Part shown: positions 3,774 to 8,245 of the stretch, one piece after another
Numbering within the stretch: the first letter of the stretch is position 1
Layout: the number at the start of each line of letters is the position of its first letter
NCBI GenBank assembly: GCA_021158055.1
Contig: JAGGVJ010000006.1
Span: 1-10,569, forward strand
Reading direction: 5' to 3'
Length of the DNA stretch: 10,569 nt
Source of the DNA: Candidatus Iainarchaeum sp.
GTDB taxonomy: Archaea > Iainarchaeota > Iainarchaeia > JAGGVJ01
The notes under the pieces: model-generated
What the model was told of the DNA's origin: nothing
What the model saw: the letters and a program-made list of their open reading frames with translations, nothing else
Databases searched by the model: none
Position numbers and translations under genes: made by a program

Positions 3774-3793
3774 AAACGCAAACCTTGTTTTTC

Positions 3794-4063
3794 ATGCCTA
3801 ATCTGCAGGAAATTGAAAAGGAAATTGAAAAAATAAAAGAAAGAAACAAGCAAGTTGAAATCAACAAAACATGGGAGACCAGCAATACAAGAAAAATCCT
3901 GCTTATCACATTCACATACATTGCAATCGGGTTTTATCTCCAGGCAATCGAAATACCCGACCCCTGGCTGAACGCAATTGTGCCTGCAGTTGCCTTCTTC
4001 CTGTCAACACTGACACTTCCTTTTTTCAAAAAACTGTGGCTGAATTACATCTACAAAAAATAA
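3794..4063 (+). CDS. Small conserved membrane protein with two transmembrane segments
   Basis: The product has 89 residues counted from the ATG at 3794; an upstream in-frame ATG at 3785 would add three. Residues 1-28 are highly charged and heptad-like (QEIEKEIEKIKERNKQVE), probably a short coiled coil in the cytoplasm. Two hydrophobic segments follow (about 35-52, ILLITFTYIAIGFYL, and 60-78, LNAIVPAVAFFLSTLTL), joined by the short turn IEIPDPW, then a basic end FFKKLWLNYIYKK. From memory this layout, with the ETSxTRK lead-in and STLTLPFFKKLW, recurs in a family of uncharacterised small membrane proteins of archaea and bacteria. No function is known to me. The start is chosen because the TATA box places transcription at this ATG. 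Confidence 0.75.
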   Translation: MPNLQEIEKEIEKIKERNKQVEINKTWETSNTRKILLITFTYIAIGFYLQAIEIPDPWLNAIVPAVAFFLSTLTLPFFKKLWLNYIYKK

Positions 4064-4173: not shown

Positions 4174-4183
4174 AGTGATATTC

Positions 4184-4666
4184 ATGCACAAAGTAATTCA
4201 CATCAGTATCGGGAACAAAAGACTTCACCTGCCAAAACTCCTTGGGGCATTGATGGTGTTCGGCGCACTGTTCAAATTCGTGGAATCAGTGATGGTCATC
4301 TCAATGAAATCAGACGTGTTAAACAATCTTTTAACGCGCGATTTGAATCCGATGCAGGCAATACAGTTTCAGGGAATACTCAACATCAATTACATGCCGA
4401 TGGGGTGGGGCGACGCACTCATGATTCTTTCCGGCTCAATCGGCGACTCACTTTTCTGGCTCTCGCTGTTTGTAATCGGCCTGATTCTCTACAACACTGG
4501 GCGAATCAACATACCTGTCGAAGAAGAAGTATATAACATCCCGGAAACAGAAGAAGAAGTAAAAAGAATAATCGAAAGAGCACCTGTTAAGCCAAAAAAA
4601 ATACCTGTTGCAAAAAGGCCTGTTAAAAAGTCAGGCGCGAAAAAATCCACTTCAAAGAAAAGATAA
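4184..4666 (+). CDS. Membrane protein with a lysine/proline-rich basic tail, function unknown
   Basis: The product has 160 residues from the ATG at 4184; an in-frame GTG at 4175 is an alternative start. I do not recognise a family. Two hydrophobic segments are visible, about 17-38 (LLGALMVFGALFKFVESVMV) and about 80-104 (LMILSGSIGDSLFWLSLFVI and the following LILY), with a polar loop between them. The last 55 residues are soluble: an acidic stretch (VEEEVYNIPETEEEV), then about 30 residues rich in Lys, Pro and Ala (PVKPKKIPVAKRPVKKSG and on) ending in KKSTSKKR. Such a tail could bind nucleic acid or phospholipid heads; this is inference. The gene converges on the LonB-like gene with 80 nt between the stops, and T-rich runs on both strands there (for example plus-strand T5 at 4705-4709) could end both transcripts. 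Confidence 0.7.
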   Translation: MHKVIHISIGNKRLHLPKLLGALMVFGALFKFVESVMVISMKSDVLNNLLTRDLNPMQAIQFQGILNINYMPMGWGDALMILSGSIGDSLFWLSLFVIGLILYNTGRINIPVEEEVYNIPETEEEVKRIIERAPVKPKKIPVAKRPVKKSGAKKSTSKKR

Positions 4667-4746: not shown

Positions 4747-6180
4747 TTATATAAAGTAATTCTTATCCCCTAACTTTTTCTCAAAATCACTTCTAAGCCC
4801 GTTTGAAACAGAACCGTACCTGTAAACAATCTGTTCCTCAATTGAAACAGATTTTTTTACGGCTTCCTTCACATCGCTTCTTTCAATCAGTTTCCTGTCT
4901 TCCGCGACAGCCATGTCACCGGCCATCCTGACTATGCCGCCCATGGAACGCAAACGCAAAGTTATGCTTTTTTTCGCGCCCTCCATTACTTTTGCTCTCT
5001 TGCATGCATCCTTCAAAAGTTCATCTACCGCTGCAGAAGAAGCGTGGGGAATCGAATTGTCTTTTCTTATCTCCTGCGCCACAAAAAAAGCAAATTTTTC
5101 CCTGTTTTCTTTTGTGTCAGGCATGAAAGTGTTGAGCAAAATTTCATAGCCGTTTCCTGTAATCCTTGAGCGAAGCGCCGGGTTTATTTCCTCAACCTGC
5201 ACTATGTTTGAAGCGGCAACAAGCATGAAATCACAGGGCACGTCAATAACTTTCACTGACGCGCCGGCGCTCTGCGGGTTCTTTCCGACAATAGAAAATG
5301 TTTTTTTCTGCATTGCCGTAAGAAGCGACCTCTGCAAATCCCTGATGTGACTGATCTCATCAATGAAAAGAACCCCCTCGTGACTCTCGTGAACTGCTCC
5401 CGGAACAACCCTCTCAAACGGGAGAACCCCGTACTCTCCCCCTCCGTAAGGGTCATGTCTCACATCTCCCAAGATCTCGGTTTCACTTGCTCCCGTGGCT
5501 TCAACAAAAGGGCTTCTTTCAAGCGGAACAAGTACTGCCTCGGCATAATCTTCAAGTTCTTCCTGTTTTTTGATTGCTTTTTCACCAAACCTGAGAAGGG
5601 TTCTTTCCCCGTGCCTCTGGTACACACACCTTTCCTTTTTTCCGGAGGGAAGAGACTGAGTCATCTCAACACTTGCCCTCAGGGTTGAAATCTCTGACGG
5701 GATAATTTTTTTCAAGGCATCTTCAATGGACGCGTCACTTGCAGAACCAAACTTGTCTTTTCCACATTGAGGGCAACTCTCTTCATTTGGAGAACTGAGG
5801 GTCCCGCAGTTACTGCAGCGATAACCAAGAATTTCCGTGACTTTTCTGGGCGCTTTTTCAACCCTGACAAGCGAACCGCCTGCATCAGCCATCTTTTTTT
5901 CAAATGCCCTTATTTGCTTTTCGTTCCTGACAACCACAGTCGGCCTCTGGGGATTATCCGGGTTGTTGACTACAAACAAAGCATGCTCTGGCTTTGGCAA
6001 AAGCGACGCAATACCATCCCCGATCATGGATTTTCCAATACCAGGGGGGCCGACCAAAAGCAGATTTCTCCTTTGCCTGGCTGCAATCTTTGCAATTTCC
6101 ACTGCATTCTCCTGGCCGATTACCTGTTCAAGAGGGGTTTTTTTAATCCTTAATTCTTTTGTTGACTCAAACTTCCGCAT
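4747..6180 (-). CDS. LonB-family AAA+ ATPase with zinc ribbon, lacking the protease domain
   Basis: This 477-residue product has the AAA+ module of archaeal LonB. Walker A is GPPGIGKS (44-51). SPFVEATGASETEILGDVRH (223-242) and GAVHESHEGVLFIDEI follow, with Walker B at 271-276. The sensor-1 region is AASN (322-325), the arginine-finger candidate is LRSRI (336-340), and sensor-2 arginines are near 409-418. Archaeal LonB normally has membrane segments between Walker A and B and a Ser-Lys protease domain after the ATPase. Here the insert has no hydrophobic span but carries a four-cysteine zinc ribbon (C122, C125, C136, C139), and the protein stops just after SIEEQIVYRYGSVSNGL, where the protease domain would begin. 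The 80 nt downstream hold no remnant. It is probably a soluble remodelling ATPase. Its start overlaps the dnaG stop by 14 nt, with GGGAG 6 nt upstream. Substrate and function are unknown. Confidence 0.85.
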   Translation of the reverse strand: MRKFESTKELRIKKTPLEQVIGQENAVEIAKIAARQRRNLLLVGPPGIGKSMIGDGIASLLPKPEHALFVVNNPDNPQRPTVVVRNEKQIRAFEKKMADAGGSLVRVEKAPRKVTEILGYRCSNCGTLSSPNEESCPQCGKDKFGSASDASIEDALKKIIPSEISTLRASVEMTQSLPSGKKERCVYQRHGERTLLRFGEKAIKKQEELEDYAEAVLVPLERSPFVEATGASETEILGDVRHDPYGGGEYGVLPFERVVPGAVHESHEGVLFIDEISHIRDLQRSLLTAMQKKTFSIVGKNPQSAGASVKVIDVPCDFMLVAASNIVQVEEINPALRSRITGNGYEILLNTFMPDTKENREKFAFFVAQEIRKDNSIPHASSAAVDELLKDACKRAKVMEGAKKSITLRLRSMGGIVRMAGDMAVAEDRKLIERSDVKEAVKKSVSIEEQIVYRYGSVSNGLRSDFEKKLGDKNYFI

Positions 6181-7570
6181 AAGATACTCCCTTGGAATTT
6201 ATGCTGATTACTTCAAGGAACTCCGGTTTTTTCTTTATTTTACCATACTTCATTCCCACTAAATAATGTATGTTTTTTTCACTGGCAATATCCACAAGAC
6301 GCTGAGTGACTATGCCATCAAAAACCACTGCATTCACCTTTTCTTTATCGCGAAGGTTTTCAAGCAATTCGCGAACAGTCATCTCTTCAATGGATTTCAG
6401 TTTTTTGTCAAGCAATTTCGCTGTCAACGTGCCTTCAATGTCGTTCATTATCTTTTTGAACACCTCAATATCTTTCTTTAAATCACCTGTCTTCTTTTTA
6501 ACAGGCTTTGTTTCAGACAAAGGTCTTGCCGCCTTTTGACCGCCTGTTTTCCTTGCGTTCCCGGTGGCCAAAGGCTTTCTGGGATTGTGGTTTCTCGCTT
6601 CAGAAGGTGCTGCTTCTTTTCCTGAAACAGGTTTTGACCTTCCATAGTCACCCGCATAATCGCGCTTTTGCCTTGGAGCAGAACCCCTCTGATCATAAGC
6701 CTGGGAAGACAGCCTTGGCCTGGTTCCGACATATGCCCTGTCAGGCGACCTGAAATAATCCCTTGCAGGAAGCTTGCGCCTCAAGCACAAAAGAATCTCT
6801 TTCCTGGCCAATTCCTCAACTTCTTTCCCGTCAGGCGCCTTGGCCACAAAATCAATTTTTCCAACTGCCTTAAGCTCTTTGAGAATTATATCCCCTCCCC
6901 TGTCGCCGTCAACAAAAGCAGTGGTCTGCTTCTTTTTTGTCAAATCAGCGACTGATTTGGAAATGTTCGTCCCTTCAACCGCAACAACGTTTTTCAAGTC
7001 GCATTTCAATAAAGCCAAAACATCTGCCCTTCCCTCAACAACGATTATTGAATCCGAACCCACGAGCTCCGGTCCGGCAGGCAGTCTCTCCGGACCAAAA
7101 GTGACTATTTCCGCAACTTTTGACCTGTTCCTGACTTCCTCTGCCAGTTCCTGCGACTCAGGAATAACATTTATTGTAAGGCCGCTCAAAAGTTTTTTCG
7201 CGCGCTCCACAACAAACTTCCTTTTAGCAGTTCTTGTGTCCTCCATTCTCTTGATGGTTATTCTTGCCTCGCACGGCCCGACCCTGTCAACTGTTTCAAG
7301 CGCCGCTCCAAGAATGGCGGTTTCAACCCTGTCAAGGCTTGAAGGAACCTCTATTTTTGCCTCGGTCTTCCCATCACGAACCCTGATTATAACATCAATC
7401 CTTCCGATCCGGCCGCTTTTCTGCAGCTCCCTCAAATCAAGGCCCTCGCCAAGAAGACCTTCAGTCTGTCCAAAAATAGCACCGACAATGTCTGGTTTTT
7501 CAACCACGCCGTCAATAAACATCTCGGCATAAACAACGTATTTTACTGTATCAACATATACTTTTCCCAT
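6167..7570 (-). CDS. dnaG: Archaeal DnaG primase-like protein (Toprim)
   Basis: This 467-residue protein belongs to archaeal DnaG, which has a bacterial-primase-type Toprim fold, can make short RNA primers, and in several archaea is a stable part of the RNA-degrading exosome. The N-terminal domain (1-165) carries KPDIVGAIFGQTEGLLGEGL (25-44). The Toprim domain spans about 170-255, with Glu179 in IIVVEGRADVL and Asp221, Asp223 and Asp227 in VDGDRGGD. Residues 270-360 form a long low-complexity linker rich in Arg, Lys, Pro, Gly and Ser, with no predicted fold. A conserved-looking C-terminal domain (362-467) follows. The start is supported by GAGGGG 7 nt upstream. It is the third gene of the four-gene unit, 20 nt after the small Toprim gene and overlapping the AAA+ gene by 14 nt. 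Confidence 0.95.
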   Translation of the reverse strand: MGKVYVDTVKYVVYAEMFIDGVVEKPDIVGAIFGQTEGLLGEGLDLRELQKSGRIGRIDVIIRVRDGKTEAKIEVPSSLDRVETAILGAALETVDRVGPCEARITIKRMEDTRTAKRKFVVERAKKLLSGLTINVIPESQELAEEVRNRSKVAEIVTFGPERLPAGPELVGSDSIIVVEGRADVLALLKCDLKNVVAVEGTNISKSVADLTKKKQTTAFVDGDRGGDIILKELKAVGKIDFVAKAPDGKEVEELARKEILLCLRRKLPARDYFRSPDRAYVGTRPRLSSQAYDQRGSAPRQKRDYAGDYGRSKPVSGKEAAPSEARNHNPRKPLATGNARKTGGQKAARPLSETKPVKKKTGDLKKDIEVFKKIMNDIEGTLTAKLLDKKLKSIEEMTVRELLENLRDKEKVNAVVFDGIVTQRLVDIASEKNIHYLVGMKYGKIKKKPEFLEVISINSKGVSYAEV

Positions 7571-7590
7571 TTTAAAACCCCTCGTGTTTT

Positions 7591-7965
7591 TTATTCTGCA
7601 CGGAGTTTTTCCACGGAACCATAGAGAGTTTCAAAAGTACTTATACCTACAAGCGAACGGATCTTAGACCTTGTTTTTATATCGGCTTCGGCTCCCTGCG
7701 CATAAAGCAGTTGAGCCAGCCTTTCCTTCAGCCTTTCACCAGTCCTGTCAAAATCTGTAAGTATTATCGCTTTTGTTATGTTTGATTTTTCAATTGTGTG
7801 AACCCAGCTTTCGCCGGACTGAGATATTGTAATAATTTCACCTTTTATTCCAAGGCTCATCAAATTTTCCTTATCCCGTCTACCCTCTACGATTACCGAG
7901 GCACCCTCCGCAATCTGCCCCTGGATTTCATCCAGAAGCTCAGTCATCTTTTCAATCTTTTTCAT
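7591..7965 (-). CDS. Small Toprim-domain protein (UPF0292-like)
   Basis: The 124-residue protein is a stand-alone Toprim domain, the metal-binding fold shared by primases, topoisomerases and RNase M5. Landmarks are ASVIVEGRRDKENL with Glu27, ILTDFDRTGERL with Asp71 and Asp73, and the basic segment IKTRSKIRSLVG (96-107), as in the archaeal UPF0292 group. Members of that group are thought to act on RNA or DNA ends, but I know of no proven reaction. The start codon lies inside the end of the DUF167 gene (14-nt overlap) and lacks its own Shine-Dalgarno, so translation is probably coupled. With dnaG next in line, two Toprim proteins are made from one transcript, hinting at a shared nucleic-acid process. 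Confidence 0.85.
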   Translation of the reverse strand: MKKIEKMTELLDEIQGQIAEGASVIVEGRRDKENLMSLGIKGEIITISQSGESWVHTIEKSNITKAIILTDFDRTGERLKERLAQLLYAQGAEADIKTRSKIRSLVGISTFETLYGSVEKLRAE

Positions 7966-8245
7966 TTATATCAAGTTTAAATATTGCCTGCTCCGGGGTT
8001 AAACCGTAAACAAGCAATGTTTTTTTGTTATTCTTTTCACCTGAAACAATTTTCACGTCTTTTGAAAAAATTTCGGTGAATTTTTTTATAATCTCTTTAT
8101 TTGCTTTGTTATCCTTTGCTACTGAAGCGCATTTTACTTTCAAACGCCTGCTCCATTCGTCTACTTTGAGAACAGCAAAGTTTTTTGAACCCGCATTGAC
8201 CTGAATGTCAATCGCAGTGTTACTGCCTGTTTTTTTAAAAGGCAT
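7952..8245 (-). CDS. DUF167 (YggU/UPF0235) family protein
   Basis: This 97-residue protein fits the DUF167 family. Seen are AIDIQVNAGSKNFAVLKVDEW at the N-terminus, the conserved DNKANKEIIKKFTEIF helix (about 45-60), then DVKIVSGEKNNKKTLLVYGL. Small proteins of this fold are widespread in bacteria, archaea and eukaryotes and their job is unknown. The start is well set: AGGAG (8255-8251) lies 5 nt before the ATG. It is the first gene of the dnaG unit, and its start is preceded by a structured non-coding leader of about 150 nt. Confidence 0.85.
   Translation of the reverse strand: MPFKKTGSNTAIDIQVNAGSKNFAVLKVDEWSRRLKVKCASVAKDNKANKEIIKKFTEIFSKDVKIVSGEKNNKKTLLVYGLTPEQAIFKLDINEKD

Follow-up and report, generated by a model that had tools for sequence, protein, structure and literature searches.

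LonZ, a zinc-ribbon LonB-like ATPase without a protease domain, encoded beside dnaG in archaea

What role could a Lon-type ATPase play that possesses neither a protease domain nor a membrane anchor? The window analysed here, a stretch of 10,569 nucleotides from Candidatus Iainarchaeum sp. (contig JAGGVJ010000006.1), carries the gene of such a protein next to dnaG. A sequence-only reading of the locus had proposed a repurposed, soluble remodeller. We refer to the protein as LonZ, a working label given here for the DnaG-linked zinc-ribbon LonB-like ATPase.

Architecture of LonZ

The ORF call, profiles and orthologues defined lonZ as an intact frame at positions 4747–6180 of the window (minus strand, like all features of the protein given below), which encodes a LonB-like AAA+ ATPase of 477 amino acids without a protease domain. 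The best NCBIfam match was TIGR00764 (LonB) with an E-value of 1.2e-102 and a score of 344.5 bits, which lies under the model's cut-off of 516.6; five other members of the family that were scanned likewise remained under it. Archaeal LonB proteins (3k1j and 4zpx) were the nearest solved structures, their alignment covering residues 3–101 and 222–453 of LonZ and leaving the intervening insert unaligned, and the best Pfam match was Mg_chelatase. The LonB-type AAA+ core that the sequence-only reading had postulated was thus borne out by both the profile and the structures. The ATPase motifs, too, proved to be intact as claimed. Walker A (GPPGIGKS, residues 44–51, positions 6028–6051) is conserved in the alignment, with G44, G47, G49, K50 and S51 in 57/57 sequences covering them, while Walker B (LFIDE, residues 271–275, positions 5356–5370) retains D274 and E275 in all 58 aligned sequences. 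N325 (5206–5208), the presumed sensor 1 asparagine of this AAA+ protein, was found in 57 of the 57 sequences covering the site, and equally constant were both arginines of R337-S-R339 (5164–5172), presumably the arginine-finger region of this AAA+ protein. In the sensor 2 region (R409-L-R411, 4948–4956), assigned from the family alignment, R411 was present in 57/57 covering sequences and R409 in 55, the other two having lysine; with this exchange, every complete LonZ sequence in the alignment has its AAA+ motifs intact. An AlphaFold2 model built from a two-row alignment reached a mean pLDDT of 39.7 and was set aside.

Residues 96–222 (positions 5515–5895), which lie between the two Walker motifs, form an insert at the place where LonB has its membrane helices according to the alignment. 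It contains a zinc ribbon, C122-x2-C125-x10-C136-x2-C139 (5764–5817), whose four cysteines are located exactly at the residues named before and occur in 58/58 aligned sequences. Pfam zinc-ribbon models matched residues ~116–144 with scores under their cut-offs. A profile of the insert matched the window protein with an E-value of 3.1e-33, the window itself being a row of that profile. No membrane helix was detected in the window protein by a 19-residue hydropathy scan, which gave a highest value of 1.48 as opposed to a median of 2.49 in 63 LonB proteins. In 63/63 of the latter, the hydrophobic stretch starts within window residues 75–222, corresponding to the place of the LonZ insert and its ribbon. 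At the other end, the ORF stops soon after the AAA+ lid and leaves out the Ser-Lys (S16) protease domain, again in agreement with the initial proposal; the GDS[AS] protease motif was found in 0/58 LonZ sequences versus 62/63 LonB sequences. The proposed protein end (...VSNGL) was wrong, however: LonZ runs 15 residues further (RSDFEKKLGDKNYFI) and ends in ...KNYFI.

Distribution and relationship to LonB

Whole-protein queries of the window's class and of 371 genomes belonging to a second phylum of the DPANN group returned ordinary LonB only, and divergent LonZ proteins were possibly missed in the second phylum because the search was limited to E ≤ 1e-62. Orthologues surfaced, in other archaea, only with the insert region (residues 82–280) as the query. 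With the insert profile, LonZ proteins whose insert is complete were recovered from 55 of the 389 archaeal genomes in the sample, representing 18 of 132 family codes; three weak partial matches to the profile were set aside in this count. Fifty-seven loci were fetched, which together with the window gave the alignment of 58 sequences, and the open frames comprise 455–551 amino acids in loci not cut by contig ends. The family spans many archaeal lineages, the window copy being the only member found in its class. One member belongs to a cultured methanogen, Methanothermobacter thermautotrophicus (locus L079, gene 6185–7690), the species being assigned from a neighbouring ORF that matches MtH895 (PDB 1ilo) over all 77 residues. 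Three genomes of family f60, namely G512 (L111/L114), G552 (L109/L124) and G571 (L106/L115), contain two LonZ copies each, the second of which does not adjoin dnaG. A scan of genome contigs revealed LonB-type relatives only, searches of viral contigs and phages gave no match, and plasmids yielded two haloarchaeal LonB proteins only. The family has no named model in Pfam or NCBIfam, and the open-licence literature searched (on zinc-ribbon LonB proteins and DnaG, on MTH892-type names, and on Pelota together with DnaG) gave no description of it. It may sit as an unnamed orthologous group in other collections. The fold is known; what appears new, judged by these databases and papers, is the combination: a LonB core with a ribbon in place of the anchor, no protease, coupling to dnaG and pelota, and a conserved aromatic end.

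A single copy within a class of genomes could indicate that lonZ is a decayed, truncated or misassembled LonB gene. We attach practically no probability to this explanation, as 57 other loci share the same ends and motifs, the tree described below places the window copy in the LonZ clade, and a separate LonB exists in the genome of the window. A frameshift or assembly error, the case that the sequence-only reading had held against itself, is excluded by the same architecture in those 57 further loci. Conservation of architecture and ATPase motifs across 18 family codes supports its view of a repurposed soluble remodeller and not of a decayed gene.

To place LonZ relative to LonB, the shared core (insert excluded) of 43 LonZ and 63 LonB sequences was used to calculate an unrooted maximum-likelihood tree. 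The two groups formed separate clades across a fully supported branch (support 100), and the same families clustered on the LonZ and the LonB sides (f25/f55/f102; f54/f68/f82/f107/f43; f35/f60/f98/f132; f63/f70/f96). The window copy appeared as a long branch within the LonZ clade. Such parallel clustering is consistent with an old duplication in archaea that was inherited mostly vertically and followed by many losses, and judging by these sequences LonZ is most probably an ancient archaeal paralogue of LonB. Regarding the earlier claim that a LonB had lost protease and anchor and gained a ribbon, the architecture stands, but the direction does not follow from sister clades in an unrooted tree.

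As had been suggested for inspection, a normal LonB with protease and membrane parts was found elsewhere in the window's genome. LonB was over the cut-off in 42 of the 55 LonZ genomes, an observation that would suit LonZ being LonB's regulatory partner, perhaps as a subunit of mixed rings that lacks a protease, perhaps as a soluble delivery factor. Yet LonZ is kept in 13 genomes without LonB over the cut-off, including all four of f32 and all seven of f59, and no linkage between lonZ and lonB was seen, which renders such a partnership very unlikely.

The LonB of the window's genome (L035 2139–4696, G000:C45) carries an intein-like insert after RHDPFQ that spans two ORFs overlapping by four bases (ATGA) and would represent a split or a frameshifted intein. 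TIGR01445 (intein N-terminal) matched it weakly (E 9.5e-4, under the cut-off). LonB is likewise distributed over two open frames in ten relatives (G038, G051, G046, G023, G033, G061, G002, G067, G075 and G076), with the breaks at about residue 246 of the query, as a same-site intein would produce. A LonB-like AAA+ protein without a protease domain was also noted in Marininema halotolerans (Bacillota; L037 5398–7224); no protease ORF follows, and the protein possesses, besides a membrane-type hydrophobic segment, an extra region at its N-terminus.

C-terminal tail and gene neighbourhood

Family comparison drew attention to the C-terminal tripeptide YFI (positions 4750–4758), a tail with a penultimate aromatic residue. 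This residue is tyrosine in 40 and phenylalanine in 14 of the 57 LonZ proteins with a complete C-terminus (54/57; 15 of 18 family codes), although the last 15–40 residues are otherwise freely variable and the aromatic background in LonZ proteins amounts to 5.5%. LonB tails show no such bias (3/63). Proteasomal ATPases dock on the 20S particle by an HbYX tail, the strict form of which wants a hydrophobic third-last residue (PMC11475706). Having no protease itself, LonZ could be an alternative proteasome ATPase that docks on 20S by its C-terminal aromatic residue and supplies it with substrates, which might be stalled nascent chains. Most PAN tails in the LonZ genomes take the form Hb-[YF]-x, and within f54 the tails of both proteins are nearly alike (PAN MFG/LonZ MFN; PAN LYQ/LonZ MYQ). 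Moreover, 20S proteasome genes were detected in 55/55 LonZ genomes, while PAN was over the cut-off in 35 and missing at this level in 20. The third-last residue of LonZ, however, is mostly serine or glycine instead of a hydrophobic residue, the choice between Y and F agrees with that of PAN in one or two families and does not track it across genomes generally, and another docking partner of the tail is conceivable. The genomes of the three members without the aromatic residue were checked for missing 20S genes, and all of them have 20S. Since all LonZ genomes have 20S, gene distribution neither confirms nor refutes the docking. Taken together, a docking of LonZ on the proteasome via its tail is only suggested, and we consider the proteasomal function possible though unlikely.

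The three exceptions (L105, L108 and L125) belong to the small-genome families f70, f96 and f63 and group together in the tree; their genomes have no PAN over the cut-off, and dnaG is not adjacent to their lonZ on the same strand. A PIP box in the tail was dismissed on inspection, the YFF tails having neither the required glutamine nor the spacing.

The gene directly upstream of lonZ in the same operon is dnaG (positions 6167–7570, minus strand; NF003108, 500 bits), encoding an archaeal DnaG-like exosome subunit. Both genes are on the same strand and overlap by 14 bases. Upstream of dnaG follow a gene for a small TOPRIM protein (7591–7965, minus; profile matches), which is also located upstream of dnaG in 11 relatives, and, in the same run, a DUF167/YggU-type gene (7952–8245, minus; profile match). 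A deoxyhypusine synthase gene (659–1618; profile match) lies ~3 kb downstream of lonZ on the same strand. It was also found near lonZ in three f60 loci, which is a weak hint. Two small plus-strand ORFs are convergent with lonZ, at 3785–4063 (no NCBIfam match) and at 4175–4666 (no Pfam match).

The sequence-only reading had raised the question whether the CxxC-x10-CxxC insert goes along with a missing protease and a neighbouring dnaG. All homologues with this insert are protease-less (58/58), and dnaG is situated directly upstream of lonZ on the same strand in 43/57 loci, corresponding to 13 of 17 other family codes plus that of the window. Some of the loci without an adjacent dnaG are cut by contig ends. 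The spacing measured from the homologous start is mostly 5–60 nt, and dnaG is the only neighbour of lonZ that is conserved across families. In 7/7 genomes of f59, which are large, lonZ is additionally coupled to pelota, located directly downstream on the same strand, and the order dnaG-lonZ-pelA was observed in six of these seven loci. The assignment as pelota is based on eRF1 domains and on TIGR00111, over the cut-off in the two f59 genomes tested. In f63, pelota is found two genes upstream of lonZ, so that the linkage comes from two family codes. Furthermore, exosome RNase PH subunits were detected in 55/55 LonZ genomes compared with 358/389 overall (hypergeometric p 0.007, not corrected for kinship), a weak test because so many of the genomes possess these subunits.

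Archaeal DnaG is an RNA-binding subunit of the exosome (PMC4227792), and links to replication have been reported as well; in some archaea, genes of replication belong to the dnaG neighbourhood (PMC2643942). LonZ could accordingly be a replication or repair AAA+ protein that teams up with DnaG in a primase-like capacity, or else with enzymes of the Holliday junction, given that the window has an Hjc gene ~3.3 kb beyond lonZ, that another one lies near lonZ in L105, and that LonZ gives weak matches to RuvB/MCM-type AAA models. Those models are far weaker than LonB, though, replication genes are not conspicuous among the neighbours that recur, of which only dnaG is repeatedly adjacent, and where a further neighbour is conserved, this neighbour is pelota. 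We thus regard a function in replication or repair as quite improbable. As for the nucleic-acid or exosome/replisome substrate that had been proposed at the outset, the pelota neighbour in one family and the exosome genes in all LonZ genomes favour RNA surveillance and do not prove it.

Proposed role and comparison with known systems

With a probability of roughly one half, we assume that LonZ is a soluble AAA+ remodeller that works with the DnaG-exosome in RNA and ribosome quality control, the partners being deduced from gene order. LonZ would form an ATP-driven soluble ring, presumably a hexamer with ATPase activity, and the zinc ribbon together with a contact to DnaG might position this ring on RNA or RNP substrates, whereupon it could pull on or remodel protein and RNP substrates. 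Such remodelling might let the exosome and ribosome-rescue factors (Pelota) act. A physical interaction of LonZ with DnaG or the exosome is inferred, as is the nature of the substrate. Against the involvement of the exosome it must be held that gene order is not physical contact and that about a quarter of the lonZ loci have no adjacent dnaG. A broader version would make LonZ the ATP-driven hub of archaeal ribosome-associated quality control, with the DnaG-exosome dealing with faulty mRNA, Pelota with the stalled ribosome, and the aromatic tail passing the nascent chain to 20S; this assumption appears rather doubtful to us.

LonZ, a conserved AAA+ ATPase accompanying the exosome subunit DnaG and, in one lineage, Pelota as well, is a directly testable candidate, the more so as it is present in the cultured M. 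thermautotrophicus. Sulfolobus acidocaldarius, used as a control, yielded nothing at E ≤ 1e-10 even with the LonB model. LonZ was perhaps overlooked because this control presumably does not have it and no curated model names it.

Among known proteins, archaeal LonB (TIGR00764; 3k1j, 4zpx) is the closest, with an AAA+ core and lid ~45–50% identical to those of LonZ and an insert in the corresponding position between the Walker motifs. LonZ differs from it by the absence of membrane helices and of the Ser-Lys protease, by its zinc ribbon, by its separate clade, and by a score under the model cut-off. Lon-like-Ms from Methanobrevibacter smithii is another archaeal Lon relative without membrane helices, but it contains a protease domain, shows peptidase activity and shares <20% identity with the LonA and LonB families (PMC4864567). 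YifB, the Mg-chelatase ChlI and MCM belong to the same broad AAA+ branch, although their matches to LonZ are local and far weaker than that of LonB. PAN and Cdc48 resemble LonZ as protease-less AAA+ proteins with a penultimate aromatic residue; LonZ, in contrast, stems from another AAA+ lineage, lacks PAN-type N-terminal parts and mostly lacks the hydrophobic third-last residue, its docking on 20S being putative. With the archaeal exosome cap (Rrp4, Csl4, DnaG), lonZ shares the coupling to dnaG and the occurrence only in genomes with RNase PH subunits. No ATPase subunit of the archaeal exosome was found in the literature searched. LonZ, unlike the cap, is confined to a minority of exosome-bearing archaea and, being missing from most of them, is not a core part of the complex. 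In eukaryotes, the role proposed for LonZ as a hub is played by Cdc48 and the Ski-exosome machinery.
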